Source: Streptomyces sp. NBC_00775 (lineage in GTDB: Bacteria > Actinomycetota > Actinomycetes > Streptomycetales > Streptomycetaceae). Taken from it: a stretch of DNA of 64,000 bases. The stretch is taken from assembly GCF_036347135.1 (NCBI RefSeq), contig NZ_CP108938.1, forward strand, positions 5,580,001-5,644,000, read 5' to 3'. The notes below the pieces were generated by a model. That model worked only from the letters and a program-made list of their open reading frames with translations. It ran no database searches and was not told the origin of the DNA. Of the stretch, positions 42,781 to 60,344 are shown in pieces (within the stretch, counting starts at the first letter, position 1; each line of letters opens with the position of its first letter). Made by a program: the position numbers and the translations under genes.

Positions 42781-43769
42781 GCAGCGACATGAACATCGAT
42801 ACGACGACGAAGTCCCCGGAGGCGGCCGCCGTGCCGCCTCCGGGCGCCGCGTCCCCCAAGAAGCGGGTTCCGCAGGGCCACAAGCGTCTGCTGACCCGCC
42901 GTGACCGGATCACGCTCGGCCTGATGGCCGGCGTGCCCACGGTCCTGCACGTGATCCTCGTCTGGTTCACGGCCCTCGCCTCGATCGCCCTGGCCTTCAC
43001 CACCTGGGACGGCATCGGCTTCGGCTCGATCAAGTGGGTCGGGCTGCAGAACTTCAAGGAGCTGTTCAGCAGCAACCCGCAGTTCTGGCCCGCCGTCCAG
43101 CACAACGTCATCTGGTTCGTTGTGCTGATTTTGATCCCGACCCCGATCGGCCTGTTCCTGGCCGTGCAGCTGGACAAGAAGATCCGGTTCAGCCGGGTCT
43201 ACCAGACCGCGTTCTTCCTGCCGGTCGTCGTGTCGATGGCCGTCATCGGCTTCGTCTGGCAGCTCGTCTACAACCCCGACACGGGCCTGATCAACAGCCT
43301 CATCGGCGCCAACAAGCCCGGCCACTACATCGACTGGATCGGCGACCCGAACCTCAACCTCTGGGCCATCCTGGTCGCCGCCTCCTGGCGGCACACCGGC
43401 TACATGATGATCCTCTACCTGGCCGGTCTGAAGGGTGTCGACCCGGCCCTGCGCGAGGCCTCCGCGCTGGACGGCGCCAACGAGTGGCAGACGTTCAAGA
43501 ACGTCGTCTTCCCGACCCTGCGCCCCACCAACACGGTCGTCCTGGTCGTCACGATCATCGAGTCGCTGCGCGCCTTCGACCTGGTGTTCGTCTTCAACAA
43601 GGGCGCCCAGGGCACCGAGCTGCTCTCGATCCTGGTCACCAACAACATCATCGGCGAGTCCAGCCGCATCGGGTACGGATCGGCCATCGCCGTCGTCCTG
43701 CTCGTGATCTCGCTCGTCGTGATCATCCCGTACCTGGTGGCCACCTTCCGGAAGGAGCGGCGCGCATGA
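42777..43769 (+). CDS. Sugar ABC transporter permease, MalF/UgpA type, 330 aa
   Basis: Starts within ATGA of the previous stop. It has six transmembrane helices after a 45-residue cytoplasmic leader. The coupling (EAA) motif reads EASALDGANEWQTFKNVVFP. Ends with ATFRKERRA. It pairs with the next permease (4-base overlap). Confidence 0.93.
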   Translation: MSSDMNIDTTTKSPEAAAVPPPGAASPKKRVPQGHKRLLTRRDRITLGLMAGVPTVLHVILVWFTALASIALAFTTWDGIGFGSIKWVGLQNFKELFSSNPQFWPAVQHNVIWFVVLILIPTPIGLFLAVQLDKKIRFSRVYQTAFFLPVVVSMAVIGFVWQLVYNPDTGLINSLIGANKPGHYIDWIGDPNLNLWAILVAASWRHTGYMMILYLAGLKGVDPALREASALDGANEWQTFKNVVFPTLRPTNTVVLVVTIIESLRAFDLVFVFNKGAQGTELLSILVTNNIIGESSRIGYGSAIAVVLLVISLVVIIPYLVATFRKERRA

Positions 43770-44656
43770 GCACCCCCACCGCCGCGCTCGGCAAGCAGCG
43801 CACCCCCGTCCGCCCGGCCCGGGTCCTGCTGCACGTGTTCCTCGTCCTCACGTCACTGGCCTGGCTCGGCCCGCTGCTGTGGGCCCTGTTCGCCGCCCTG
43901 CGGCCGTACGGCGAGACCAGCGAGAAGGGCTACGTCTCGTGGCCCGACAAGCTGAGCTTCGACAACTTCACCAACGCGTTCCAGCAGTCCGACATGCTCC
44001 ACTACTTCGGCAACACGCTGCTGATCGCGATCCCGGCCGTGCTGCTGACGCTGTTCCTGTCGTCGTGCGTCGCGTTCTACGTCAGCCGCTTCGACTTCCG
44101 CGTCAACCTCTTCCTGCTGCTGGTGTTCACGGCCGGCAACCTGCTCCCGCAGCAGGTCATCATCACCCCGCTGTACCGCCTGTACCTGCTGATCGACCTG
44201 CCCGGGATCACCGTCAGCGGCAAGCTGTACGACTCCGCGCTCGGCCTGGTCCTCATCCACGTGGCGTTCCAGTCCGGGTTCTGCGCCTTCGTGCTGAGCA
44301 ACTACATGCGCTCGCTGCCGCACGAGCTGACCGAGGCCGCGCTCGTCGACGGCGCCTCGGTGTGGCGGCTGTACTGGCAGATCGTGCTGCCGCTGTGCAA
44401 GCCCGCGATCGCGGCCCTGGCGACCCTGCTGTCCATCTGGATCTACAACGACTTCTTCTGGGCCATCGTGCTGATCTCCACCGGCGAGAACATGCCGATC
44501 ACCTCGGCCCTGAACAACCTCTCCGGCCAGTACTTCACCGACCCCAACCTGGTCGCCGCCGGCGCCCTGCTCACCGCGATCCCGACGCTGACCGTGTACT
44601 TCGCGCTCCAGCGCCAGTTCGTCGGCGGTCTCACGCTGGGCGCCAACAAGGGCTGA
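43766..44656 (+). CDS. Sugar ABC transporter permease, MalG/UgpE type, 296 aa
   Basis: Six membrane helices; the EAA motif is EAALVDGASVWRLYWQIVLP, followed by IAALATLLSIWIYNDFFWAI. Family start PVRPARVLLHVFLVLTSLAW. It completes the membrane part of the transporter and is followed after 27 bases by the alpha-galactosidase gene. Confidence 0.93.
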   Translation: MSTPTAALGKQRTPVRPARVLLHVFLVLTSLAWLGPLLWALFAALRPYGETSEKGYVSWPDKLSFDNFTNAFQQSDMLHYFGNTLLIAIPAVLLTLFLSSCVAFYVSRFDFRVNLFLLLVFTAGNLLPQQVIITPLYRLYLLIDLPGITVSGKLYDSALGLVLIHVAFQSGFCAFVLSNYMRSLPHELTEAALVDGASVWRLYWQIVLPLCKPAIAALATLLSIWIYNDFFWAIVLISTGENMPITSALNNLSGQYFTDPNLVAAGALLTAIPTLTVYFALQRQFVGGLTLGANKG

Positions 44657-44683
44657 CGCCCTCGTACTTGAAAGAGAACCACC

Positions 44684-45997
44684 GTGCCCCACCCCTTCAC
44701 TCCGCTCGACTCCGTGCCCGTGGACCCGCGCAGGGCCAGGGTCTACGAGGAGGGCTGGCAGTCCTGGAGCCCCAGCGGCGCCTACGCCCTCGACGCGACG
44801 CCGTACCGGCCGACCAACGACAACTGGGCGACCGTCTGCTACCGGCCAGGCGTCACCGTCCCCCACGGCACCTTCCAGGGTGAGGGCCTGCTGGCGCTCG
44901 ACCCCGGCGACGGCTCGCCGGTCCGGCTGTGGGCGGCGGCCGAGCCGCTGCGGTCCGTGCCGTCCATCCGGCTGGAGATACGGGGTGACCGGGCGGAGAT
45001 CAGCGCCGACGGGCCGGTGAAGTCGCTGACCGGCACCGACATCCAGTCCCTGCTGGCGGACTGGGCGGACGGCCTCGGCCTCGCCGCCCCGCGGCCGGCG
45101 CCCACCGTCTGGTGCTCCTGGTACGAGTACTTCACCGCCGTCACCGAGGACGACATCCACGAGAACCTCCGTGCGATGGACACCCTCGACCTCCCCATCG
45201 ACGTCGTCCAGATCGACGACGGCTACCAGCGCGCCCTCGGCGACTGGCTCACCCTCTCCGGCCGCTTCCGCTCCCGCTCCGGCATCGCCGACACCATCCG
45301 CGCGCGGGGCCGCAGGGCGGGCATCTGGACGGCGCCGTTCCTGGTCGACCCGGGCAGCGAACTCGCCACGGCCCACCCCGACTGGCTCGTCCGGTCCCTC
45401 GACGGCACGCCCCTGCACGCGGGCCGCAACTGGGGCCACGACCTGTACGTCCTGGACACCACGCACCCGGCCGCGGCGGCCTACCTGACCGAGGTCTTCA
45501 CCACCCTGCGCGCCGAGGGCTACGACTACTTCAAGGTCGACTTCCTCTACGCGGGCGCCCTGGACGGCGTACGGCACGACGGAACCGACGCCCTCACGGC
45601 GTACCGCTCCGGTATCGCCCTGATCCGCGAGGCGATCGGCCCGGACGCCTATCTGCTGGGCTGCGGTGCGCCGGTCCTCCCCTCCATCGGCCTGTTCGAC
45701 GCGATGCGCGTCAGCCCCGACACGGCTCCGCACCGCCGCTCCGAGGCCGACGACTACTCCCAGCCCGGCCAGGACGCCGCCGAGTTCACCGGCGTCGGAC
45801 GCCAGTGGCAGCACGGCCGTCTCTGGGTCAACGACCCCGACTGCCTGATGGCCCGCCCCGCCGTGGAGACCCGCGAACGCTGGGCGGCGCATGTGGAGGC
45901 CACCGGCGGCCTGATGGCGTCCAGCGACCGGCTGCTGTCGCTGGACGAGTGGGGCGTGACCACAACTCGACGTCTGCTGGGGGGAGTTACCCGATGA
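44684..45997 (+). CDS. GH36-type alpha-galactosidase, 437 aa
   Basis: GTG 44684 has AAAGAGAA upstream. The catalytic nucleophile is D286 in FKVDFLY and the acid/base is D346 in RVSPDTAP. WCSWYEYFTAVTEDDIHENL and IDVVQIDDGYQRALGDW are (beta/alpha)8-barrel elements of GH36/GH27. It is shorter than many GH36 enzymes (usually over 600 residues) because the N-terminal beta-sandwich is reduced. There is no signal peptide, so it hydrolyses imported alpha-galactosides in the cytoplasm. It overlaps the beta-galactosidase gene by 4 bases. Confidence 0.9.
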   Translation: MPHPFTPLDSVPVDPRRARVYEEGWQSWSPSGAYALDATPYRPTNDNWATVCYRPGVTVPHGTFQGEGLLALDPGDGSPVRLWAAAEPLRSVPSIRLEIRGDRAEISADGPVKSLTGTDIQSLLADWADGLGLAAPRPAPTVWCSWYEYFTAVTEDDIHENLRAMDTLDLPIDVVQIDDGYQRALGDWLTLSGRFRSRSGIADTIRARGRRAGIWTAPFLVDPGSELATAHPDWLVRSLDGTPLHAGRNWGHDLYVLDTTHPAAAAYLTEVFTTLRAEGYDYFKVDFLYAGALDGVRHDGTDALTAYRSGIALIREAIGPDAYLLGCGAPVLPSIGLFDAMRVSPDTAPHRRSEADDYSQPGQDAAEFTGVGRQWQHGRLWVNDPDCLMARPAVETRERWAAHVEATGGLMASSDRLLSLDEWGVTTTRRLLGGVTR

Positions 45998-48006
45998 GCG
46001 GCATCCGCACTCTGTCCGTGCCCGGTATCGCGTACGGCGGCGACTACAACCCCGAGCAGTGGCCCGAGGACGTCTGGGCCGAGGACATGCGCCTGATGCG
46101 CGAGGCCGGCGTGACCATGGTCAGCGTGGGCATCTTCGCGTGGGCCCTGCTCGAACCGTCCGAGGGCGTGTACGACTTCGCCCGCATGGACCGCCTGCTC
46201 GACCTGCTGCACGAGAACGGCATCGCGGCCGACCTGGCCACCCCCACGGCAGCGCCCCCGGCGTGGTTCTTCCGCGCGCACCCCGAGGCGCTGCCCGTGG
46301 ACCGCGACGGCCGCACCCTCTCGTACGGCAGCCGGCAGACCTTCTGCCCGAGCAGCCCCGCCTACCGCGAGGCCGCCCTGCGCATCGCGGGCGCCCTCGC
46401 CGAGCGGTACGCCGGCCACCCGGCGGTGGCGATGTGGCACGTCCACAACGAGTACGGCTGCCACAACGCGGAGTGCTACTGCGACACGAGCGCGGCGGCC
46501 TTCCGCGGCTGGCTCCGGGCCCGGTACTCCGACGACCTGGCGGAGCTCAACCACGCCTGGGGCACCACCTTCTGGAGCCAGTGGTACTACGACTGGGACG
46601 AGATCCTGCCGCCCCGCGCCACCGGAGCCGTCCCCAACCCGACCCACCAGCTGGACTGGCGCCGCTTCTGCTCGGACGAACTGCTGTCGCTGTACGTCGC
46701 CGAGCGGGACGTACTGCGCCGGGCGGCCCCGGCGACGCCCGCCACCACCAACTTCATGGTGATGGACAACTTCGACGCGCTGGACTACTGGCGCTGGGCG
46801 CCCGAGCTGGACGTCGTCTCCAACGACCACTATCTGATGTCCGCCGACCCCGAGTCGGAGATCGACATCGCGCTGAGCGGCGACCTGATGCGCTCGCTCG
46901 CGGGCGGCCCCTGGCTGCTGATGGAGCACTCCACGGGCGCGGTGAACTGGCAGCCCGTCAACCGCGCCAAGGGGCCGGGGGAGCTGCGCCGCAACGCCCT
47001 CGCGCATGTGGCGCACGGCGCGGACGGCATCGCCTACTTCCAGTGGCGGGCGGCCAAGGCGGGCGCCGAGCAGTGGCACTCGGCGATGCTGCCGCACGCG
47101 GGGACGGACAGCCGCATCTGGCAGGACGTCGTCGCACTGGGCCAGGACCTGAAGGCCCTGGCGGAGGTGCGCGGCAGCACGGGCACGGCGTCCGTCGCCA
47201 TCGTCTGGGACTGGAACGCCCGCTGGGCCGTGGAACTGCCCTCCCAGCCGAGCGGCGAACTCCGCTTCCAGGACCTGGTCCGTGACTGGTACGAGCCGCT
47301 GTGGCGCGCGGGCGTGGCCGTGGACTTCGTACGCCCCGAAGCGGACCTGAGCGCGTACCGCCTGGTCCTGGCGCCGAGCCTGTACCTGGTGGACGACGCA
47401 GGCGCGGCGAACCTGGCCGCCTTCGCCGAACGCGGCGGCACGCTCGCCGTCGGCTTCCACAGCGGGGCGGTGGACGAGAACTGCCATGTGCGGCTGGGCG
47501 GTTACCCGGGCGCGTTCCGGGAGGTCCTCGGCGTACGGTCCGACGAACTGTTCCCGCTGCTGGCCGACGAGACGGTGGGCCTGAGCGGGGGCGGCACGGC
47601 CACGCTGTGGTCGGAGCGGGTGCGTCTCGCGGGCGCGCGGGCGGTGACCTCGTACACGGAGGGCCCGCTGACGGGCGTTCCGGCGGTCACCCGGCACACA
47701 TACGGCGCGGGCACCGCCTGGTACCTGGCCACCCGCCCGGATCCGGCCACACTGGGCGCCCTGCTGACCCGGATCCGCGAGGAGGCGGGCGTCGAGCCGG
47801 TCGCGACCACCCCACTCGGCATCGAGGCGGTCCGCCGCCGGGGGCCGCACGCCGACTACCTCTTCCTGATCGACCACGGCGGCCAGGGCGCTGAGGTGCC
47901 GGTCGCCGCCGACGCGACGGAACTCCTCACCGGTAAGCCCGCTTTGGGGTCGGTGACGGTTCCGCCGGGTGGGACGGCCGTGGTACGGGAGCCGCACGGG
48001 AGCTGA
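45994..48006 (+). CDS. GH42 beta-galactosidase, 670 aa
   Basis: ATG 45994 follows GGGGGAG. The N-terminus GIAYGGDYNPEQWPEDVWAE is diagnostic. Catalytic acid E153 lies in WHVHNEYGCH and nucleophile E311 in LLMEHSTGAVNW. The cysteine cluster CHNAECYCD corresponds to the GH42 zinc site. The trimerisation domain and C-terminal beta-sandwich complete the protein. It is intracellular. Together with the GH36 enzyme and the transporter it forms a pathway for mixed alpha/beta galactosides. Confidence 0.94.
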   Translation: MSGIRTLSVPGIAYGGDYNPEQWPEDVWAEDMRLMREAGVTMVSVGIFAWALLEPSEGVYDFARMDRLLDLLHENGIAADLATPTAAPPAWFFRAHPEALPVDRDGRTLSYGSRQTFCPSSPAYREAALRIAGALAERYAGHPAVAMWHVHNEYGCHNAECYCDTSAAAFRGWLRARYSDDLAELNHAWGTTFWSQWYYDWDEILPPRATGAVPNPTHQLDWRRFCSDELLSLYVAERDVLRRAAPATPATTNFMVMDNFDALDYWRWAPELDVVSNDHYLMSADPESEIDIALSGDLMRSLAGGPWLLMEHSTGAVNWQPVNRAKGPGELRRNALAHVAHGADGIAYFQWRAAKAGAEQWHSAMLPHAGTDSRIWQDVVALGQDLKALAEVRGSTGTASVAIVWDWNARWAVELPSQPSGELRFQDLVRDWYEPLWRAGVAVDFVRPEADLSAYRLVLAPSLYLVDDAGAANLAAFAERGGTLAVGFHSGAVDENCHVRLGGYPGAFREVLGVRSDELFPLLADETVGLSGGGTATLWSERVRLAGARAVTSYTEGPLTGVPAVTRHTYGAGTAWYLATRPDPATLGALLTRIREEAGVEPVATTPLGIEAVRRRGPHADYLFLIDHGGQGAEVPVAADATELLTGKPALGSVTVPPGGTAVVREPHGS

Positions 48007-48015
48007 CCGGGGCGG

Positions 48016-48834
48016 TCACGGCTGTGGCGGTGGAGGCGGGCTGGTGTGCCACATGGCGAAGACCGCTTCGGTGGTGCGGCACAGGGCCCCCACCGCCCCG
48101 CGCAGTGACCGCCAGGACGCCAGCCCGACCACGACGCCGAGGGGCGCCGCCGGCCACCACCAGGCACCGAGGACCGTGAACGCGAGGCTCCAGGCGAGCG
48201 CCTCGCACGCCGCGTCGTAGGCGTCCCGGGCCTCGCTCAGCGCGGCACGGGGGGCGTCCGGCAGCGCGAGGAGCAGCCTGGTCCACTCGCTCGCGACATC
48301 GGTTCCCGTCTCGGCTCTGACGTGCGCCTCGGTGGCGCGGAACCGGTCGCCCGACCAGGTCGGGGAGCCGGGCTCGGCCGGCCCGGTACGGGCCCTGCGC
48401 GCGTCGAGCCGGTCGGCGCGCAGCTGCCGTCCGGCGGCGCGTGCGCGGACGGCCCGCCGCCCGGTCTCCTCGGGAGGCGCCCAGCGCCGTACCCGCCACG
48501 CGGTCAGCCGGCGGCCCAGCGGCATCAGCCACCAGGGCCAGGCCCCCGACGCCAGCGCGCCGATCGCGCCCCCGGCGAAGGGCACCGCGAACGCGGCTCC
48601 CACCGCCGCCACCGCGACGAGCACGAGGGACGCGACGCCGTCCCCGGACATGCCGCCGCTCCACCGCAGCGCACCGGCGATCCGTTCGCGGGCGAGCCCG
48701 AGATCGTCCCAGTGGCGCTGTCCGAGCTGCCCGCCCCCCACGATCGCCACCACGACGAACAGCACGGCGGGCAGCAGCCGGCGCAGAAACCAGCCGTCGG
48801 GTATGCGCTTCTGGAGTTCGACGAGCAGCCCCAC
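48016..48834 (-). CDS. Multi-pass membrane protein of unknown function, 272 aa
   Basis: GTG 48834 lies 5 bases after the stop of the upstream gene. Hydrophobic helices occur at about 15-35 (LPAVLFVVVAIVGGGQLG), 60-95 (two segments, LVLVAVAAVGAAFAVPFAGG and IGALASGAWPWWLMPL) and 210-240 (WSLAFTVLGAWWWPAAPLGV). A basic helical cytoplasmic region lies between. I recognise no family. It forms an operon with the 129-aa protein, divergent from the CHAT gene, which suggests a shared function. Confidence 0.7.
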   Translation of the reverse strand: MGLLVELQKRIPDGWFLRRLLPAVLFVVVAIVGGGQLGQRHWDDLGLARERIAGALRWSGGMSGDGVASLVLVAVAAVGAAFAVPFAGGAIGALASGAWPWWLMPLGRRLTAWRVRRWAPPEETGRRAVRARAAGRQLRADRLDARRARTGPAEPGSPTWSGDRFRATEAHVRAETGTDVASEWTRLLLALPDAPRAALSEARDAYDAACEALAWSLAFTVLGAWWWPAAPLGVVVGLASWRSLRGAVGALCRTTEAVFAMWHTSPPPPPQP

Positions 48835-48839
48835 GGCCC

Positions 48840-49229
48840 TCAGCCGTCCACGAGACGCATCGGCCGATCGACCAGGGCACACGCCGGAGTCTCCGGGCCC
48901 GTCGCCCCTTCGCGCAGGTCCACCCGGCCACAACGGCCCGTGGGGCAGACCCAGCCGACCGACCGCGGGGTGGGCCCGGACGGCCATACGCTAGAGCCCA
49001 TCGTGATGCTCAGGCCGATCCCGCCGGGGATCCCGGCCGCCTCGACCGCGTTGTGCAGCGCGCGCACCGCGTCCCGCCACGCGGCGGTGGACGGGTCGCC
49101 GTCCCGGACGACCGCGAAGGGTGCCTCCCAGAGCGCGGGGCCGATCAGCTCGCGTACCGCGTCGACATTGCGGCACAGGTATTCGACGGCATTCTCGTAG
49201 AGCCTGCGCGCTTGCGTCCCGTCCCCCAC
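48840..49229 (-). CDS. Hypothetical protein with C-terminal cysteine motif, 129 aa
   Basis: GTG 49229 was chosen because AGGGAG lies 6 bases upstream; the frame is open to GTG 49259. The helical N-terminal half includes ARRLYENAVEYLCRNVDAVR and WRDAVRALHNAVEAAGIPGG. The C-terminus has GWVCPTGRCGRVD, then PACALVDRPMRLVDG, which could bind zinc through three or four cysteines. I do not recognise the family. It starts 67 bases from the divergent CHAT gene and shares its promoter region. Confidence 0.7.
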   Translation of the reverse strand: MGDGTQARRLYENAVEYLCRNVDAVRELIGPALWEAPFAVVRDGDPSTAAWRDAVRALHNAVEAAGIPGGIGLSITMGSSVWPSGPTPRSVGWVCPTGRCGRVDLREGATGPETPACALVDRPMRLVDG

Positions 49230-49282
49230 CGCAGACTCCCTGAAAGTCCGGAGAATCACTGCCCTCTGACGTGAGATCAGAT

Positions 49283-49289
49283 TAGTGTA
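49283..49289. promoter_or_regulatory. Overlapping divergent -10 boxes
   Basis: The bases ATTAGTGTAAT around here give TAGTGT on the plus strand (49283-49288) and TACACT on the minus strand (49289-49284). The plus -10 ends 8 bases before ATG 49297, so the CHAT message has almost no leader. Confidence 0.5.
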
Positions 49290-49296
49290 ATGAAGG

Positions 49297-52200
49297 ATGA
49301 CTGAGCTTCAGGATCGAGTGATCGCCCGTCTCTTAGCAGCTCAGAACGCCCGAGATCCCGCGCCGCTGCGCGGGGAGGACGCGGTGAGCGATGCGCTGGC
49401 CCTGCTGCGTGAGGCCGCGCCGTCGCCCGAGGGAACGATCGACCTCGACGGGGTCGCCGCCGTCTGCTGGACGTTCTTTCTCCGCCATCAGGGCCCCGAG
49501 GACCCGGACGCCCAGCGAAACGTGCTGATCGCGCTGAGCACGTTCGGATTCCTGTGCCCGCAGGTGCCGGCCGACGCGCAGCTTCCGCAGCCGCTGCGGG
49601 ACGGCTTCGACCCTGCCGATCCGGGGCACGAGGCGCGGTTCGCCTACCTCGTGAGTTCGGCGTACGGGGAGGCTGTCGGCGACAGTCCGGCGTACGGGGA
49701 TGCCGGCCGGCTGGCCGCGCTGGACCGTGCGCTCGCCTGGTCCGATACGGCGCATCAGCTCCTGCCCGAAGGCCACGACGGGTTCGTCGAGTTGGCGTTC
49801 CACAGCCTCGGGCTCCACGCGGCGCGTTTCCAGCTCGCGGCGGACCCGGACGCGCTCGCCGTCGCCGCCCGGTACGCGGGGGCGGTGTGCGAAGGGCTGG
49901 ATTCCGCCGGCCCGGAGGGAGCGGAGGCGGCGGCGGTCGCCCTCGGGACCGTCCTGGACGCCGCGCGGCTGCTCGGCGAACCCCCGCTCGGCGAGGTCGA
50001 GCGGCTGGTGGCGGCGGCCCCGGAGGGCGCGCTCACCCCGGAGGGCGCCGAGGCGCTGCGCTTCCTGCGTGAGCTGGACGCCGAACCGGCCGCCTGGCCG
50101 GGGGAGATGGACCTGCGCGTCGGCTCGGTCATCGCCGACGCAGGCATACGTGAGCACGACGCGAGCCGGATCGTCTGCGGTGCCCGGCGGCTGCGCGCGG
50201 CGCTCGCCCACACCCCCGCCGACCATCCGGCCCATCCCTTCGCCACCGCCGCCCTGAGCCGGACGCTCGCGGCCTTCGCCCAGGAGCGGGGCGACGACGC
50301 GGTGGCACGGGAGGCGGCACGTGAGGCGGCCGAACTGCTCGCCACGGTCGACGTGACGCGCCTGCTGAACGGCGCCGACGCGGAAACCCTCGCCGCTTTC
50401 CCCGGAGCGGACCAGGAACTCCTCACCACCGTCCGGGGGTTGACGGAGCTGATCGAGGACGACGATCCGGGCCGCCGGCAGCAGGCGGGGCCGTTGCTCG
50501 GCCACCTCGTCGAGCAGCTCAGGGAACGCGCCCCGGGCGACGGGGAGTCCGCACCCGCCCCGGACATCGACCTCGAAATCCTCGACATGGTCAGCGTGAT
50601 CATGGGGCAGTCGGGGCAGGCGGAAAACTCCAGGGACTCCAGGGACTCCAGGGACTCCAGGGACTCCAGGGACTCCAGGGACTCCAAGGACTCCAAGGAC
50701 TCCAGAGATTCCAGGCGATCCGCGCACTCCGGCGTGGTCTCCGATCAACGGATCGCCCGCTACCGTGCCGCCCTGGCCGGCCTGCCCGCCGACAGCCCGC
50801 ACCGTTACGCCTATGTCGCCGTGCTGGCCGCCCTCACGGGAGCGCACGCGCAGGCCCTGCGGGAGGCCGAACCCGCCAGGGCGGCCGCGCTCACGGCGGA
50901 ATCCCGGTCGCTGACCGACGAGGTGGCGGCCGCCGCCCCGGACGGCTTCCTGCCGCTCGGCCTGCTGCGCCGTGGCCTCTTCGACGCCGCGCTGCCCGTC
51001 GCCATGGCGGCGATCCACGCGGACGAGCCGGACGGTGCGGAGGACCTGCGCGACCTGACCAGGCTGGTCTCCTTCGTGTCCCGCATGGACGACGTCCGGC
51101 TCGACGACCCCGATCACCTCGACGCCGACATCGTGGTCATGCGGGAACTGCTCGCGGACCTCGGCGAGGAAGACCCCTCGATACAGGCGCTGCTGGCCGG
51201 GGCGCTCGGCAGCGCGCTCTCCGCCCAGAGCTCCCAGCAGGGCGATCTCGCCCCGCTCGACGAGGCCGTCCCGCTGTTGCGTCAGGCGCGTTCGCACGCG
51301 TCCGACGCCGGTGGCGTCACCGAGGGGCTCGACGGGATCGACCGGGTCCTCGCCGGCGCGCTCACGGCCTGGTCGTTCGGGCGCTTCGACGCGGAAGGGG
51401 CGCGGGAGGCGGCGGCACTGCTCGCCGCGGCGGCTGACGGGTCATCGCCCGGCGTCGAAGCGGCGGTGGCCGAAGGGGAACTCACCGACTTCGAGGTGGA
51501 GGTGCTGTCGGCCCGTACCGAATTCACCAACGCCGTGGAGAACTACCTGATCGGCCACGAACCGGCCCAGCTCGAACGGGCCCGGGAGTTCGCGCGACGG
51601 CTCAAGGAACTCACCGGCCGAGCGGACGCCCAGGACGGGGACCGTCTGCCGGGGCTCGACGTGCTGGGCGACGCCCTGCTCAACCTGGTCGACACCTTGG
51701 GGCCCGGCGGCGGCCCCAAGCCCGACATCACCGACGAGCTGGTCGAGCAGTGCCGGAGCACGTTCGAGGCGTGTCCGGCGGGCCACCCGATGCGGCTGTT
51801 CACCGCCTCCACGTTCATGCGGGCGCTGGCCCAGCGTTCCGTCGCGGTGCGCCGCGCCGATCCGGAGCACGCGGCGCGCCTGGCGGCCGAGGCCAACGAG
51901 GTGATCAGCGGCGTCGAGGGGGAGGCACCCGACGGCTGGGCCGACACGATGCGCGTCTTCATCGGTGTCATCGGGAAAGGACGCCTGCCTCGGCTCTCCC
52001 TGCCGGACGGGCCGCCCATGACCCCCTCCCGGGCGCCGGCGAACGCCGTCGAGGCCATGATGGCGTTTCTCGGAACCCGCCTGTCCGGCAGCGCCGACCC
52101 CACCGCGCTGCGCGACCCCATGCTCCCGACGTGGTTCCGGGCGCACGGGGAACTCGGCGCCGCGGCCGGTGCGTTGGGGAGGGAGAACGGCAGTGTCGAG

Positions 52201-53913
52201 CTGGCCCTGTCCCACCTCGAAGCGGCCATCGAAGCCATGGCGGACGTCACCGACCGGGGAAGCGACCAGCAGTCCGCCGAGCACGGTCTGACCTCGTTCG
52301 AGGGGGACATCCGCCGGATCGTCGAGCTGATCCTCCTGACGGTCCAGGGCCGCCAGGCCGCCACCGAGGTGAGCGCCTTCGCCGACGACGTCAAAAGCGC
52401 CCTCGACGACTTCCAGACCGCCCTGCGGGAACAGCGTGTGCCGGATGCCCTGCCCGATGCCGCCGCCCTCTCCCGCAAGCTCCGTATCGTCGCGGGGCCC
52501 GACGTCGACCGCACCACCGAGCTGCTCGAACGCGGGCGCGGGCTGCTGCTGGCACGGCGGATCGAGGCCCGCGCCGACATCGGCGAAGTACGGTCGGCGC
52601 ATCCCGCGCTGGCTCGCGAGTTCGAGCGGCTGACCGACCTGCTCGCCACCGAGGCCGACATACCCGACGTGCTCGGCACACCCGGCGTATCCGATCCGGC
52701 CCCCGCCGGGCACGCCGAACGGGCCCGGCTCGCGGGGCTCCGCGCGTCACGCGAACTCGACGAGCTGGTCGACCGCATCCGCGCCCAGCCGGGGTTCGAC
52801 GGTTTTCTGCGCCCGCTCTCCGCCGGGCAACTGCGCCTGCTCGCGGCCGACGGTCCGATCGTCGTGCTCAACCACACCCAGGGCGCGTGCCACGCCCTCG
52901 TGGTGACGGCGGAGTCGATCACCTCCCTGCACCTCGAACCCGACGCGGACGAGATCACCGAAACGGCCCGACAACTCGGCGACGCCGTCGACGCCATCAA
53001 CGCACGCGGCCGGTCGAGACCGTCCCCGGCGCAGCTCATCGCCGCCGGCGCCACGCTCTCTCGTACGCTGGCGTGGACCTGGCACAAGATCGTGCGCCCG
53101 GTGCTCGATCTGGTCGGGTCAAGCGCGCCCGTTCCCGACGAAGGCAGCTGGCCGCGCATCTGGTGGGTGCCCACGGGCGCCTTCAACGCCCTGCCGCTGC
53201 ACGCGGCCCAGTGCACGCTGCCCGACTGCGCACTCGACGGCTGCGGCGCCGCGCTGGACGCCGTCGTCTCGTCGTACGTCCCCGGATTCCAGACCCTGGC
53301 GTACGCGCGCACCCGGGCCGGGCACCGCGACACCGCCGACAACGGCGGCGCCCTGCTCGTCGCGTCCCCCGAGGACGAGCTGCCCGGCGTCGCGGCGGCG
53401 GCCGGCTACGCCGCCGGACTGCTCGGCGCGCACGAGCCGCTGGTCGGTGCCGCCGCCACCCGCGAGGCCGTACTCGCCGCGCTCGGCGCCACCCCCTGGG
53501 CGCACTTCGGCTGCCACGCGGCCACCGACCCCACGGAACCCTCGGGCGCCCTGCTGCACCTGCCCAGCGGCGAGCACCTGTCCGTCCTCGAAATCTGCCG
53601 CGCCCGGCCCCGGTCGGCCCGCCTCGCCTTCCTCGCGGCCTGCGGCACCGCCCGCGCCTCCGAGCGGCTCGCCGACGAGGCCATCCACATCACCAGCGCC
53701 TTCCTCCTCGCCGGCTTCCCCACCGCCGTAGGCACCCTCTGGGAGATCGACAGCACCCACGCGGACCACGTCACCCGCGCCTTCTACGACCGCATGACAA
53801 CCCCTGGCACCGACACCTCGGCCCACGCCCTGCACCACACCGTCCGAGAACTCCGCCACCGCATCCCCGACCGCCCGCATGTCTGGGCGGCGTACGTCCA
53901 CGCGGGCACCTGA
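49297..53913 (+). CDS. Helical-repeat CHAT-domain protease, 1538 aa
   Basis: Residues about 1-1150 are alpha-helical repeats of TPR/solenoid type with tripeptide repeats Ser-Arg-Asp at about 446-472. Residues about 1190-1535 form a C-terminal CHAT (caspase-like) domain: GPIVVLNHTQGACHALVVTA, then RIWWVPTGAFNALPLHAAQC. The catalytic dyad is H1407 in HFGCHAATDP and C1449 in FLAACGTARAS, followed by AFLLAGFPTAVGTLWEIDST. CHAT proteases often act in stress or conflict systems. Codon 13 is TTA, so translation should need the bldA tRNA. It is divergent from two uncharacterised genes with which it shares a promoter region. Confidence 0.92.
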   Translation: MTELQDRVIARLLAAQNARDPAPLRGEDAVSDALALLREAAPSPEGTIDLDGVAAVCWTFFLRHQGPEDPDAQRNVLIALSTFGFLCPQVPADAQLPQPLRDGFDPADPGHEARFAYLVSSAYGEAVGDSPAYGDAGRLAALDRALAWSDTAHQLLPEGHDGFVELAFHSLGLHAARFQLAADPDALAVAARYAGAVCEGLDSAGPEGAEAAAVALGTVLDAARLLGEPPLGEVERLVAAAPEGALTPEGAEALRFLRELDAEPAAWPGEMDLRVGSVIADAGIREHDASRIVCGARRLRAALAHTPADHPAHPFATAALSRTLAAFAQERGDDAVAREAAREAAELLATVDVTRLLNGADAETLAAFPGADQELLTTVRGLTELIEDDDPGRRQQAGPLLGHLVEQLRERAPGDGESAPAPDIDLEILDMVSVIMGQSGQAENSRDSRDSRDSRDSRDSRDSKDSKDSRDSRRSAHSGVVSDQRIARYRAALAGLPADSPHRYAYVAVLAALTGAHAQALREAEPARAAALTAESRSLTDEVAAAAPDGFLPLGLLRRGLFDAALPVAMAAIHADEPDGAEDLRDLTRLVSFVSRMDDVRLDDPDHLDADIVVMRELLADLGEEDPSIQALLAGALGSALSAQSSQQGDLAPLDEAVPLLRQARSHASDAGGVTEGLDGIDRVLAGALTAWSFGRFDAEGAREAAALLAAAADGSSPGVEAAVAEGELTDFEVEVLSARTEFTNAVENYLIGHEPAQLERAREFARRLKELTGRADAQDGDRLPGLDVLGDALLNLVDTLGPGGGPKPDITDELVEQCRSTFEACPAGHPMRLFTASTFMRALAQRSVAVRRADPEHAARLAAEANEVISGVEGEAPDGWADTMRVFIGVIGKGRLPRLSLPDGPPMTPSRAPANAVEAMMAFLGTRLSGSADPTALRDPMLPTWFRAHGELGAAAGALGRENGSVELALSHLEAAIEAMADVTDRGSDQQSAEHGLTSFEGDIRRIVELILLTVQGRQAATEVSAFADDVKSALDDFQTALREQRVPDALPDAAALSRKLRIVAGPDVDRTTELLERGRGLLLARRIEARADIGEVRSAHPALAREFERLTDLLATEADIPDVLGTPGVSDPAPAGHAERARLAGLRASRELDELVDRIRAQPGFDGFLRPLSAGQLRLLAADGPIVVLNHTQGACHALVVTAESITSLHLEPDADEITETARQLGDAVDAINARGRSRPSPAQLIAAGATLSRTLAWTWHKIVRPVLDLVGSSAPVPDEGSWPRIWWVPTGAFNALPLHAAQCTLPDCALDGCGAALDAVVSSYVPGFQTLAYARTRAGHRDTADNGGALLVASPEDELPGVAAAAGYAAGLLGAHEPLVGAAATREAVLAALGATPWAHFGCHAATDPTEPSGALLHLPSGEHLSVLEICRARPRSARLAFLAACGTARASERLADEAIHITSAFLLAGFPTAVGTLWEIDSTHADHVTRAFYDRMTTPGTDTSAHALHHTVRELRHRIPDRPHVWAAYVHAGT
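50632..50714 (+). repeat. Nine-base tandem repeat inside the CHAT gene
   Basis: About nine copies of the unit AGGGACTCC (last copies changed to AAGGACTCC and AGAGATTCC) encode (S-R/K-D)n. The unit length preserves the frame, so copy number can vary without breaking the gene. It forms a charged linker between two helical regions. Confidence 0.85.
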
Positions 53914-56433: not shown

Positions 56434-57855
56434 TCACGCCCTGTGCCAGGCGCTGAGCAATTCCTCGGGGCCGTATGCCGCCTGGAGCCCGGAACAGCTG
56501 ATCCCGTTGCGGGAGACCGCCACGAGTGGAACGGGCTCGTCGGTGATCGCCGCCCGGTGCTTCTGCAGCGCGGCCAGATCGTGGCTGTCGAACGCGGAAG
56601 TCTCCAGCCACTTGACCGAGCCGAGGAAGAGCAACTGCTTGGCCACGGGCTGTCGGTCGGCGCCCACCAAGTCGATTTCGACGTCGTTGCTGCGGGTCCA
56701 GTACCCGCCGATCGCCGGGGCGGCGGGCAGGAGCCCGTCCGGCAGGAGACGGGCCAGGGATTCCCGGACCAGGGGCTCGATCGCGCGGCCCCGCCAGCTC
56801 GTCCACTGCTCCTTGATCCGGCTCAGAGTGAGATCTCCCCGCATCCGCTCGATCTCCGCCATGTGCGGATCCAGAAACGCGAGCCAGAACCGGAGGTAAG
56901 GGTCGGCCACCCGGTAGCGGCGTTCCTTCGACGGCCGCATCGAGAGTGGCAACTCGGCTGCCACCGCCCGTTTCTCGGTCAGGACATCCGTGGCTCGAGT
57001 GAGAGTGGTGTGGGCGATGCCGCCGGCGGCGCGCGCGATGTTGGTGAACGTTCGCTCCCCGCTTCCGATGGCCCGCAGCACTTCCCGGCTCATCGCCTGC
57101 GGTGGAAACTCAGCGGCCAGTGAGCGCTCGGCGGATACCAGCAGCGCCGAGATCGGGTTGTCCAGCGAGTCGCGGAGGAACTCCCAGACATCCGCTCCGG
57201 CCCGCCACTCCGCGCAGATCAGCGGGAGGCCGCCCGTGATCAGGGCGGCGTCGAAGGCGTCCGCCGGCTCAAGCCCGAGCATCTCGCCGATGTCGGCCGG
57301 GTTCAGCGGCCCCACGACCATTTCCCGGCCCCGCTGGTGGAAGGGGCGGTCGTAGCTGTTCAGCGCCTCCATCATCGACAGGTCGGATCCGACCAGGAGG
57401 AGGAGCACCGGCTTGCGGCTGAGCAGCCGGTCCCATGTGCGCTGGAGCATGCCCTCGAAGGCGTCGATGCGGTCCATGAGATACGGAACCTCATCGATGA
57501 CGACGACGCTCGGGCTGTCGTCGGGCAGGACCTCCGCAAGCAGTCTGAATGCGGCGTTCCACTGTTCCGGGGCCTCCTCCGAGAACAGCCCTCGCTCCGG
57601 GAGCGTGGATCTGGCGACGGCGTCGAGCAACTCCGTCAGTTCGTCCTCCGCCGTTCCGCCCGCAGCGGTGAAGAAAAGGTACGGCGTCTCGGTGCGCCGG
57701 AGGAACTCCTCGACGAGGCTGGACTTGCCGACCCGCCGCCGCCCCCGCATGAGGATGCACTGGCCCGGCTTCGCTGACCCGACGGCATCGCCAACGGCTT
57801 GCAGGGCGTTGCGGAGCACGTTCAGCTCCCGGTCCCGTCCGATGAAACGACGCAT
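56434..57855 (-). CDS. Archaeal-type P-loop ATPase with DUF234-like C-terminus, 473 aa
   Basis: ATG 57855 has GGGGG upstream. The protein starts MRRFIGRDRELNVLRNALQA. Walker A is GRRRVGKSSL (38-47) and Walker B SVVVIDEVPYL (D121-E122). The winged helix GERTFTNIARAAGGIAHTTL and C-terminal nuclease-like region (WTRSNDVEIDLVGADRQPVA then LFLGSVKWLE) follow the PF01637-DUF234 layout; the E-D...K pattern suggests a PD-(D/E)xK-like fold. A 12-bp palindrome precedes the gene, implying self-control. Such ATPases are often on mobile or conflict-related islands. The role is unknown. Confidence 0.88.
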   Translation of the reverse strand: MRRFIGRDRELNVLRNALQAVGDAVGSAKPGQCILMRGRRRVGKSSLVEEFLRRTETPYLFFTAAGGTAEDELTELLDAVARSTLPERGLFSEEAPEQWNAAFRLLAEVLPDDSPSVVVIDEVPYLMDRIDAFEGMLQRTWDRLLSRKPVLLLLVGSDLSMMEALNSYDRPFHQRGREMVVGPLNPADIGEMLGLEPADAFDAALITGGLPLICAEWRAGADVWEFLRDSLDNPISALLVSAERSLAAEFPPQAMSREVLRAIGSGERTFTNIARAAGGIAHTTLTRATDVLTEKRAVAAELPLSMRPSKERRYRVADPYLRFWLAFLDPHMAEIERMRGDLTLSRIKEQWTSWRGRAIEPLVRESLARLLPDGLLPAAPAIGGYWTRSNDVEIDLVGADRQPVAKQLLFLGSVKWLETSAFDSHDLAALQKHRAAITDEPVPLVAVSRNGISCSGLQAAYGPEELLSAWHRA

Positions 57856-57870
57856 GGGAATACCCCCGTG

Positions 57871-57900
57871 GGAGATAGTATCGCTGGAGATACTATCTCC
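57871..57900. promoter_or_regulatory. Palindromic operator before the ATPase gene
   Basis: GGAGATAGTATC (57871-57882) and GATACTATCTCC (57889-57900) are perfect inverted repeats with a 6-base spacer. The site is AT-rich relative to its surroundings and lies 16 bases before the ATPase ATG, overlapping any promoter there. Confidence 0.7.
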
Positions 57901-57917
57901 ATTGTTACCATCTTGCC

Positions 57918-60344
57918 CTACTCGGGCATGATGCTGTGGATGCGCGAGAGGGTGAAGACGCGTTCGGCGTCCCGCAGGTGGCACCAGGCTTCGAGATAGG
58001 GCGGGTCGAGCGCGAGGCGGCTGAGGGTACGTACGGTCCGGTTGCCCGAGGTGGCGACGTATTCGACGGTGATGGCCCGACCGGTGTCGATGGCATGGGC
58101 GAGCTGGCGGACATCGGTGTAGGGCAGGAGTTTCGCCCACGACGAGACGATCTCCTCGGTGTCCGTGCCGAAGGGCACCCCTCCGTCGAACGGTGCCGGA
58201 TCCGGAGCATTCGGCGGGGCGGCCAGCAGTCGGGCCGCCAAGGCGCTCGGGTCGACGGCGGCCGGCGCCTTCGCCGTGACGGTGGCCGTGATCCGGAAGC
58301 TGCTCCTTCCGCTGGTGCCGCGTGGGGCCGGCACGGGAACGGCGGCCCGCCGAGGCCGGGTTCTGTCGATGCGTACCGTTCCCTCGGCCGTCTCGCCGAC
58401 AGGGGCGTATCCCTCGGCTCGGAGCGCGGCGAGGGTCGCGTCGACCGGGCTGCGGCTGACCAGTACCGTCGGCGCCAGCTGTCGTAGTCCCAGCTTGGTG
58501 AGCCCCCGGTGGGCGGCGATCTCCGCCAGGAGCGCGGGCTCGTCGCCGTGGAGGACGCAGGCGGCCGGGGCGATGCGCACCCGCCCGTGGCGGCGCGCGG
58601 CGTCGGAGATCAGATACGACAGTGGCTGTGGCAGGGGCCCGGCGGCGACAGCGGCCAGCTCGGCGGTGATGTCGGTGGGGGTGCGGCCGGCGTCCAGGGC
58701 CCGGCGGATACTGCCGGCCTTGAACCGCCACACCGACGCTGTGCCGCTGGTCTCCCGGTCGGCGACGGAGTCCAGGAGCGCGGCGAGCCGCGCGGACGGT
58801 GTGCCCGTGACGACGGCGGTGAGGTCGGCGCCGATTCGGGCCGCTGAGGTGGCCGGGGGCAGCAGCCGCCGGCACGTGGTGCCCAGTTCCTGCATGTCGT
58901 CGGTCCGCAGGTGGGCGCCGAGGGGGGACAGGGCACCACGAGCGAGTACGCCGAGCAGTTCGGCCTCACGGATCGCGGCGGCGAACGGCGTTTGGTCCTG
59001 GGGCGACGACTCGGCGAGTGGACGGTGCCAGGCGATCAGCGGCCCGAGATCCGAGGCGGCCCTCAAGCCCTGACCTGTCGGGAGCAGGCCGGTTGCGGCC
59101 AACAGCCCCTCGCGAGCCTGCAGGCAGCCGTCGCAGGGCGGTGCGCCGGCGAGGGCCGGAAGCGCCTTGTTGTCCTCGTCACGAGCCCGGGTGGGGGTGA
59201 GCGGCAGGTTCCGCCATGCTCGAAGGAGTACGGCGAACTGCTCCGACGGTTCCTGTTCCGCCCAGGCCTCATAAGCGTCGGTGGATGCCATGTGATCGCC
59301 GTCCCGGCCCAGCAGCCCGGCAACGTACGCGGTCTCGAGGGTGATGCGTACGACGGCGTCTTCGGCCTGGGCGGCCTTGCCGATCCGGACCAGTTCACGT
59401 GCGCCGATCCCGCCGGACTTCAGCCGGGCCGGCGCGGCCGCCGCGCAGGCCGACAGGACGGAGACGGCGTGAGCGGCGAACGCCGTGGCCGCGGCCGACG
59501 CTTCGCGATCCACCTCTGCCGGGGTGACGGGCACCAGCGGGGCGAAAGGTGGGACGGGATGGAACGGGGCGTGCCAGGAGGGCCCGCGCAGCGCGAGCGC
59601 CACTTCGACAGGCATACGGGCCGGGCCGTAGCGATGACGGTCCTGGACCAGGAGCCCCCGGTCCAGTGCCCATTGCGTGCCCGATTCGAGGCCGGGGCCG
59701 GGAGCCCCGAACATGATGAACTCAGGCTGCCTCGCAGTGGCCTCCGCTCGGCGTTCGAGCAACTTCCGGGCCGCAGTAGGAGCCTTCGCGACCAGCGCGG
59801 CGATCTGCTCCGGGTCGCCGTGGTGTTCCACCAGAGCGACCATTCGCTGTGGCTTGGTGCCGGGAGGCTTGACTCCCAGTGCCACCAGCATGCTGCGCAG
59901 TTCGTCGGAGGTCGTGCCCGCGAGCAGCTCCTTCAGCGGAGCATCCAGCCCCAGAGGCGCGTCCCATGCCTGCCGCAGCGGTGCGGCCATGCGGAGCTTC
60001 TCCGCGCCATCCGGCCAGACCAGAGCATGATCGGCCAGTACCCCCAGCACAACGTTCAGCTCGCGAGCGGCTTCCTCGTCCGCCGCTCCCAGCAGCTTCG
60101 CCAGGGCATCACGCGACGCGGGTGCCCCCAGCGCCGCCAGTGCCTCGGCCGCCTGCAGGTACGGCAGCGCGAGCCGTGGCAGGGCCAGCGACACCGACCC
60201 GGGACGCTGAAGACGGTCCGCCAGTTCCCCCAGTGAGCGTGGCTCTGGAGGGGACACGGCGTCCTTCCGTGTCACGAGCACGCGTGCCAGTCGAGTGCCG
60301 TCGAGGCTGCCCAGCCACGTAACCAGCGTTGATCGGGACGTCAT
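57918..60344 (-). CDS. Helicase-associated (XPB/Ssl2-like) domain and WYL domain protein, 808 aa
   Basis: ATG 60344 follows GAGGTG. The N-terminal half has helical winged elements (LPRLALPYLQAAEALAALGA, ADEEAARELNVVLGVLADHA). The middle has a helicase C-terminal XPB-like domain without a P-loop (YLISDAARRHGRVRIAPAAC, LGLRQLAPTVLVSRSPVDAT). The C-terminal 60 residues are a WYL domain (ITVEYVATSGNRTVRTLSRL, YLEAWCHLRDAERVFTLSRI). WYL domains sense nucleic acids or nucleotides in many defence regulators. No ATPase motif is visible, so it is probably a DNA-binding regulator. It precedes the ATPase gene by 62 bases. Confidence 0.88.
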   Translation of the reverse strand: MTSRSTLVTWLGSLDGTRLARVLVTRKDAVSPPEPRSLGELADRLQRPGSVSLALPRLALPYLQAAEALAALGAPASRDALAKLLGAADEEAARELNVVLGVLADHALVWPDGAEKLRMAAPLRQAWDAPLGLDAPLKELLAGTTSDELRSMLVALGVKPPGTKPQRMVALVEHHGDPEQIAALVAKAPTAARKLLERRAEATARQPEFIMFGAPGPGLESGTQWALDRGLLVQDRHRYGPARMPVEVALALRGPSWHAPFHPVPPFAPLVPVTPAEVDREASAAATAFAAHAVSVLSACAAAAPARLKSGGIGARELVRIGKAAQAEDAVVRITLETAYVAGLLGRDGDHMASTDAYEAWAEQEPSEQFAVLLRAWRNLPLTPTRARDEDNKALPALAGAPPCDGCLQAREGLLAATGLLPTGQGLRAASDLGPLIAWHRPLAESSPQDQTPFAAAIREAELLGVLARGALSPLGAHLRTDDMQELGTTCRRLLPPATSAARIGADLTAVVTGTPSARLAALLDSVADRETSGTASVWRFKAGSIRRALDAGRTPTDITAELAAVAAGPLPQPLSYLISDAARRHGRVRIAPAACVLHGDEPALLAEIAAHRGLTKLGLRQLAPTVLVSRSPVDATLAALRAEGYAPVGETAEGTVRIDRTRPRRAAVPVPAPRGTSGRSSFRITATVTAKAPAAVDPSALAARLLAAPPNAPDPAPFDGGVPFGTDTEEIVSSWAKLLPYTDVRQLAHAIDTGRAITVEYVATSGNRTVRTLSRLALDPPYLEAWCHLRDAERVFTLSRIHSIMPE

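Follow-up and report, generated by a model that had tools for sequence, protein, structure and literature searches.

A CATRA system consists of a caspase with CHAT and TPR parts, a small protein named CATASP and the CATRA protein. We describe here three adjacent genes of Streptomyces sp. NBC_00775 that encode a CHAT protease, a small Cys-motif protein and a membrane protein (together, the triad). The genome is a single contig of 11.1 Mb (NZ_CP108938.1), the window analysed is the 64,000-nucleotide stretch at positions 5,580,001 to 5,644,000 of its forward strand, and the triad lies within positions 48016-53913 of the window. CATRA ternary caspase systems are named in PMC8195603 (excerpt), which cites Kaur 2020 and Burroughs and Aravind 2020. 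In type III-E CRISPR (Craspase), the TPR-CHAT protease Csx29 cuts an inhibitor of a sigma factor (PMC10028731, excerpt). Bacterial gasdermins adjoin caspase-like proteases that cut them (PMC9612521, excerpt). HetF of cyanobacteria is a putative CHAT-domain protease whose active site is needed for function (PMC8406250, excerpt). As described below, the three genes of the triad are almost certainly inherited together as one unit and, as far as we searched, this unit is uncatalogued. The genes and the region between them, in window coordinates, are as follows.

48016-48834, minus strand: membrane protein gene, 272 aa, GTG start, placed from homologue lengths and the RefSeq start of an ortholog
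48840-49229, minus strand: small protein gene, 129 aa, GTG start at 49229, stop at 48840, AGGGAG upstream
49230-49296: divergent control region, 67 bp
49297-53913, plus strand: CHAT protease gene, 1538 aa, with TPR-like N-terminal repeats

Co-inheritance of the three genes

Co-occurrence was surveyed in 197 genomes of the order, with the membrane-protein and CHAT searches treated as one genome set; 86 membrane and 141 CHAT places were entered in the table, and some second fragments of the same genes were left out. The membrane family was matched in 69 of the 197 order genomes (strongly in 52) and in 21 of 101 genomes of the genus, and the CHAT part in at least 90 of the 197. Among the matches listed, 58 of the 63 strong membrane matches (E no higher than 1e-40) lay within 7 kb of a CHAT match, and a random place would lie that close with a probability of about 0.0013 (~0.13%). 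There were five strong exceptions: at L239 the contig stops within the N-terminal part of an adjacent CHAT gene, at L240 it stops about 700 bp beyond the membrane gene, two matches represent a split membrane gene in genome G220 (one of two loci examined), and the last is an N-terminally truncated membrane gene in genome G102 (L238).

Neighbourhoods were also inspected in sets of 20 loci, which were hand-picked from the tables and not random, using script gene calls made by a crude GC-frame method. A CHAT gene was present in 18/20 and 20/20 neighbourhoods of strong membrane matches and in 15/20 of weak ones. The two strong misses were L078, which ends inside the CHAT N-terminus, and L069, which is flanked on both sides by insertion-sequence transposases. 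One of the 15 CHAT matches beside weak membrane matches (L190) is poor, with a gap at the catalytic His, and the CHAT query of the co-occurrence survey misses CHAT proteins detectable by hidden Markov model (HMM; L171-L173).

The divergent triad is kept at 17/17 ortholog loci, from Streptomyces, Streptantibioticus, Saccharothrix and Actinacidiphila, with the CHAT or membrane gene split over two frames at three of them (L092, L094, and L098; draft errors or decay) and the CHAT gene cut by a contig end at L097. These 17 loci form 13 groups by flank similarity; none of them carries the five tested flank genes of the window, and only the near ortholog in genome G040 shares one side. Chance adjacency was ruled out by the proximity at 58 of 63 places together with the 17 loci in 13 flank groups, and the lack of co-occurrence against which the preliminary description, made by a model from the sequence alone, had set its proposal was not seen at either. 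The triad is also present on two megaplasmids, and a Rhodococcus opacus plasmid carries the small, membrane and CHAT genes in this order, all on one strand.

The orientation of the CHAT gene at 38 strong loci was divergent in 28 cases, on the same strand downstream of the membrane gene in 5, upstream of it in 4, and convergent in 1. The distances among CHAT proteins follow those among membrane proteins (Mantel r 0.87 for 38 loci and 0.65 for 53 loci, with 0/1000 permutations as high), host relatedness being uncorrected in these values. At 31 of 40 strong loci an HMM places the small protein beside the membrane gene; at the other 9, an open reading frame (ORF) with a CP-x3/4-C end was read by eye just upstream of the membrane gene, a reading that leaves out the loci between L173 and L177. 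The small and membrane genes overlap or nearly touch.

The open frame of the CHAT gene (1538 residues) was confirmed, and both opposite-strand genes of the preliminary description exist, with starts that it had placed too early and that we moved to 49229 and 48834. For the small gene, GTG 49259 is probably too early because about 128 aa is typical among 67 homologs, while the 323-aa membrane ORF from 48987 is too long, since close homologs are mostly 260-285 aa and cover 80-87% of that query. The RefSeq annotation of Streptomyces cadmiisoli has equivalent starts, with products of 272 aa and 128 aa from genes separated by 5 bp; in the window, 5 bp likewise separate the stop of the small gene from GTG 48834 of the membrane gene. 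Close homologues of both proteins are from Streptomyces.

Two distant paralogs of the membrane family that have no CHAT gene (L179 and L180) lie directly downstream of DUF4132/DUF7737 genes. Among 20 loci with related CHAT genes chosen for having no membrane match (L191-L210), 4 gave a membrane match with an extended profile, and other ORFs with multiple transmembrane segments near several of the remaining ones suggest further CHAT-membrane pairings.

The CHAT protease

The following features were located in the protease gene.

53071-53907, plus strand: CHAT domain PF12770 by Pfam, residues 1259-1537
53515-53517, plus strand: catalytic His1407, H in 53 of 54 aligned CHAT domains, with one gap
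53641-53643, plus strand: catalytic Cys1449, C in 54 of 54 aligned CHAT domains
50627-50715, plus strand: tandem repeat of a 9-bp unit in 9.9 copies, which encodes a DSR/DSK run, a fast-changing stretch

The Pfam match to PF12770 reached 115.6 bits (E 3.8e-33; curated cut-off 24), and the earlier assignment of Cys1449 as the catalytic residue was correct, His1407 being its partner. The N-terminal helical repeat, also claimed from the sequence, is backed indirectly: N-terminal segments of the ortholog profile match relatives repeatedly (with a spacing of ~45 residues in L072), one relative (L078) passes the cut-offs that Pfam sets for TPR-S and TPR_10, and another (L239) has a TPR-S match below cut-off, both of them being cut by contig ends; the window protein (P0001) has no TPR match of its own in Pfam. 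The ortholog profile matches 51 of 53 CHAT proteins of the family, 28 of which (including L065, itself in the profile) have a significant N-terminal match, and a sequence search of the PDB found no relatives of P0001. Mean identity among orthologs is 0.78 in the CHAT domain (16 of 17 comparable) and 0.73 in the N-terminal 60 residues, vs. 0.53-0.54 over residues 501-1060, and it is lowest (0.45; 8 of 17 comparable) over residues 420-500, which hold the DSR/DSK repeat. The repeats, the TPR matches of relatives, and the lower identity of residues 501-1060 relative to the CHAT domain argue for a sensor-like N-terminus.

The small protein and the membrane protein

One feature was located in the small protein gene.

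48843-48965, minus strand: zinc-ribbon-like end of the small protein, with C95, C100, and C117 of 129 residues, from Cys conservation and weak fold resemblance

Cys19, Cys95, Cys100, and Cys117 are conserved at 0.99-1.00 in 68 sequences, the first of them sitting in an N-terminal helix. An AlphaFold2 model (predicted local distance difference test, pLDDT, 81.6; predicted template modelling score, pTM, 0.54) has four N-terminal helices followed by a three-strand, Cys-containing C-terminal beta part. The model as a whole gave no significant known fold, and the resemblance of its C-terminal end to zinc ribbons is weak, below significance. The linker formed by residues 65-88 is modelled with low confidence, yet its conservation (0.79) compares with 0.75 and 0.74 elsewhere. 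At several more distant loci the small protein ends in a ribbon of CPxC or CPxD...CPxH type, and 1 of 31 small-protein members matched the effector-associated domain EAD1 at E 0.03.

In the sequence of the membrane protein, three hydrophobic segments are clear and a fourth is probable; it also contains an Arg-rich loop of 136 residues and the motifs PTWsGDR, Wp.Lw, and wWWPa. Its model is all-helical (pLDDT 87.5), with 3-4 predicted membrane helices.

The preliminary description recognised no described type in this locus, which our scans of Pfam, NCBIfam, and PADLOC bear out. No Pfam match better than E 0.03 was obtained for 34 membrane and 31 small-protein members, ten distant members being likewise unmatched. 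In NCBIfam, where the queries were the three window proteins plus ten distant members, neither the small/membrane pair of the window nor the distant members had a credible match, and none of the three window proteins, which formed the query set here, matched a PADLOC model. The best 120 of 306 database members of the membrane family carry no Pfam domain and are hypothetical, mislabelled, or without a name. The UniRef label "Vegetative cell wall protein gp1" on three of its members (P0162, P0174, and P0180) is most likely a misannotation. A literature search that did not cover Burroughs and Aravind 2020, where a prior description is possible, found no description of a CHAT/Cys-motif/membrane triad. 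By term search, the main text of Kaur 2020 contains neither CATRA nor CHAT, and PMC11237479 and PMC12419801 contain nothing on CHAT proteases.

Comparison with described systems

CATRA systems, the nearest catalogued counterpart, resemble the triad in combining a CHAT caspase with a small helical protein and a third gene, and the TPR-type N-terminal region of the triad protease, judged from its repeats and from the TPR matches of relatives rather than from P0001's own, adds to the likeness. The small protein of the triad, however, is of a Cys/zinc-ribbon type and not CATASP, and the other partner of the protease is a membrane protein for which Pfam has no credible match: PF20271 (CATASP) matched 0/31 small-protein members at E 0.1, nor did it match P0003 or anything in G000, and 34 membrane members gave no Pfam match better than E 0.05 in a collection likely to include CATRA-N and CATRA-C models. 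CATASP was found in 1 of 61 genomes (G056), where two matches adjoin CHAT genes with similarity to P0001 (E 1.1e-63 and 7.5e-58). These CATASP proteins are free of the Cys motif, and no membrane-family match was found at their loci. Membership of the triad in CATRA was rejected, the small protein not being CATASP. The earlier comparison with caspase-like conflict systems was a fair one as to architecture, given the TPR-S and TPR scores of relatives and the CATASP genes of a CATRA-type locus beside related CHAT genes. At that locus (L104), two CHAT genes about 9 kb apart each have their own CATASP match, and it is probably a double CATRA locus.

Csx29, like the triad protease, has TPR-type repeats followed by a CHAT protease, and the triad protein matches its family NF041237 with 35 bits, far under the cut-off of 300 bits. 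None of the seven flanking window proteins matched a Cas family, Cas7-11 included, at E 0.001, in a Pfam search that could not address Csx30. In bacterial gasdermin pairs, as in the triad, a caspase-like protease gene lies beside a candidate membrane effector gene (PMC9612521, excerpt), whereas the membrane partner of the triad is modelled as all-helical and has no gasdermin match in Pfam. HetF shares with the triad a CHAT-domain putative protease in a multicellular bacterium, but it carries membrane and TPR segments of its own within a single protein and functions in division and differentiation, and no three-gene unit is seen in the part of the source consulted (PMC8406250, excerpt).

Control region and TTA codon

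Three elements lie between the divergent genes and one at the beginning of the protease gene.

49283-49288, plus strand: -10 box TAGTGT for the CHAT gene, with 8 nt between it and the ATG
49284-49289, minus strand: -10 box TACACT for the small and membrane genes, which overlaps that of the CHAT gene
49266-49280: inverted repeat CTGAC-N5-ATCAG (ortholog consensus CTGAC-N5-GTCAG), just upstream of the CHAT -10 box
49333-49335, plus strand: TTA codon 13 of the CHAT gene, the sole TTA in the gene

The overlap of the two -10 boxes had been noted before and holds. The upstream alignment comprised 16 orthologs, 3 of 19 having been left out when their start motif was not located by the script. All 16 have a TAnnnT box 6-9 nt ahead of the CHAT start codon, and the inverted repeat keeps a mean of 3.56 of 5 pairs over them (best offset outside its own register, 2.5). 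From the box and the repeat we predict that the CHAT mRNA is leaderless and that the inverted repeat is an operator-like element serving both directions. No promoter of the sigma-70 consensus type came up in a simple scan. We considered whether the CHAT promoter motif marks a wider regulon and rejected this: allowing at most 2 mismatches, the genome has 4 sites, including the triad locus, vs. 1 for the reversed control, which gives no clear regulon. A PafBC-type damage promoter was likewise rejected, the spacing being similar but its consensus being TGTC vs. mostly TGAC here.

The bldA tRNA reads TTA codons and limits the genes that bear them. TTA at codon 13 was confirmed, and bldA control, which the preliminary description drew from it, is plausible for the window gene, as judged from this codon and from early TTAs (codon 30 or less from the first in-frame ATG or GTG) in 5 of 53 CHAT genes of the wider family. 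As a property of the system it is not supported, and it is the weakest of the earlier claims: this TTA is common to 1 of 17 ortholog loci (L085), and the near ortholog in G040 has GTA at the position and no TTA in its CHAT gene, so that bldA gating is not a defining feature of the triad and would be local only. TTA makes up 20 of 46,835 codons (0.43 per 1000) in CHAT genes of the strong set, 16 of 25,642 (0.62) in the orthologs, and 23 of 19,416 (1.19) in the weak set, and is rarer in other ORFs of the same loci (56 of 198,153; 0.28 per 1000). The first 30% of the CHAT gene holds 23 of the 43 TTAs of the strong and weak sets.

Possible function

We tentatively propose, by analogy, that the triad is a protease-effector cassette in which a repeat-gated CHAT protease would cut one or both partners and thereby switch on the membrane effector. 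The TPR-like N-terminal region would sense a cue or bind a partner, holding the CHAT domain off. The triggered protease would then cut the small protein, at a guess in the linker of residues 65-88, which we considered because it is modelled with low confidence yet is as conserved as the rest, or the large cytoplasmic loop of the membrane protein. Thus freed, the membrane protein might permeabilise or signal at the membrane and lead to dormancy or death of the compartment. In the window strain, the early TTA is in the protease gene and not in those of its partners, and the supply of protease may wait for abundant bldA tRNA. The proposal of cleavage follows precedents, namely the TPR-CHAT protease that cuts a sigma-factor inhibitor (PMC10028731, excerpt) and the gasdermin-protease pairs (PMC9612521, excerpt).

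Strong membrane-family matches occur in about a quarter of the sampled order genomes. It is possible, though doubtful, that the triad is an uncatalogued cell-death switch executed by a caspase, widespread in filamentous actinobacteria, often under an overlapping divergent promoter and bldA-gated in some strains, in which the TPR-CHAT protease would release a helical membrane effector, one that is not a gasdermin, from the hold of a zinc-ribbon inhibitor. The death of hyphae in such organisms has long been discussed. If the protease does gate the membrane protein, this would be another bacterial caspase-to-membrane route besides gasdermins, and its three genes are few enough for direct testing of the mechanism.

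Several observations weigh against the proposed protease-effector cassette. Among the matches listed, weaker membrane matches lie near a CHAT match in 2 of 7 cases (1e-40 to 1e-20) and 2 of 16 (above 1e-20), and 62 of the 141 CHAT places listed have a membrane match within 7 kb while 79 have none, which indicates that CHAT proteins have other partners too. The ribbon of the window family has only three Cys, which makes zinc binding uncertain, and the membrane-protein model has no clear resemblance to a known fold. In the neighbours of 20 systems (109 proteins), PADLOC matched 3 models with one member each, vs. 5 models with 11 member matches in 20 control regions ~55-80 kb away (113 proteins); a defence island was ruled unsupported, there being no excess of known defence genes over the controls.

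This comparison also speaks against phage defence proper, that is, abortive infection via membrane damage, which we regard as unlikely, although the patchy and plasmid-borne occurrence of the triad, its presence as several divergent copies in one genome (G119, for instance, has four membrane-family matches), and the fast-evolving repeat region of the protease would suit it. A search of a phage collection gave no match, an outcome not expected either way. It is also unlikely, in our opinion, that the triad is a membrane-sensing signalling module, in which the membrane and small proteins would respond to a cue, internal or from the envelope, and the CHAT output would cut a regulator encoded elsewhere in the genome, with no killing. 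The close coupling of the small-membrane pair, separately promoted from a protease that is divergent in 28 of 38 strong loci, fits such a module, as does the cutting of a sigma-factor inhibitor by the known TPR-CHAT protease (PMC10028731, excerpt); however, no regulator gene was seen as part of the conserved unit, and the cassette is whole in different contexts, so that the substrate would have to be general or inside the unit.

For a developmental timer, in which a HetF-like protease would aid Streptomyces differentiation in a bldA-dependent way through its TTA codon, one can cite the real TTA at codon 13, the higher TTA content of CHAT genes relative to flanking ORFs, and HetF, a putative CHAT-domain protease that needs its active site for function (PMC8406250, excerpt). 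HetF is required for heterocyst formation. We consider a developmental timer quite improbable, given that only 1 of 17 ortholog loci has the codon and G040 lacks it, that there is a relative in Rhodococcus, and that the membrane family, matched in 21 of the 101 genomes of the genus and in 69 of the 197 of the order, is too patchy for a core developmental role. Very improbable is a CATRA ternary conflict system, for which the parts list, similar in outline, and the CATASP matches beside related CHAT genes of G056 might be put forward; none of the 31 small members matches PF20271 at E 0.1, the CATASP proteins of G056 lack the Cys motif, and their loci have no membrane-family match.

Neighbouring genes

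To the left of the triad, at 43034-48006, lie genes for an ABC permease, a melibiase-like protein, and a GH42 beta-galactosidase, the last two of which also flank the triad in G040. To its right, at 56434-60344, are genes for an AAA ATPase with a DUF234 end and for a Helicase_C_3 plus WYL protein.

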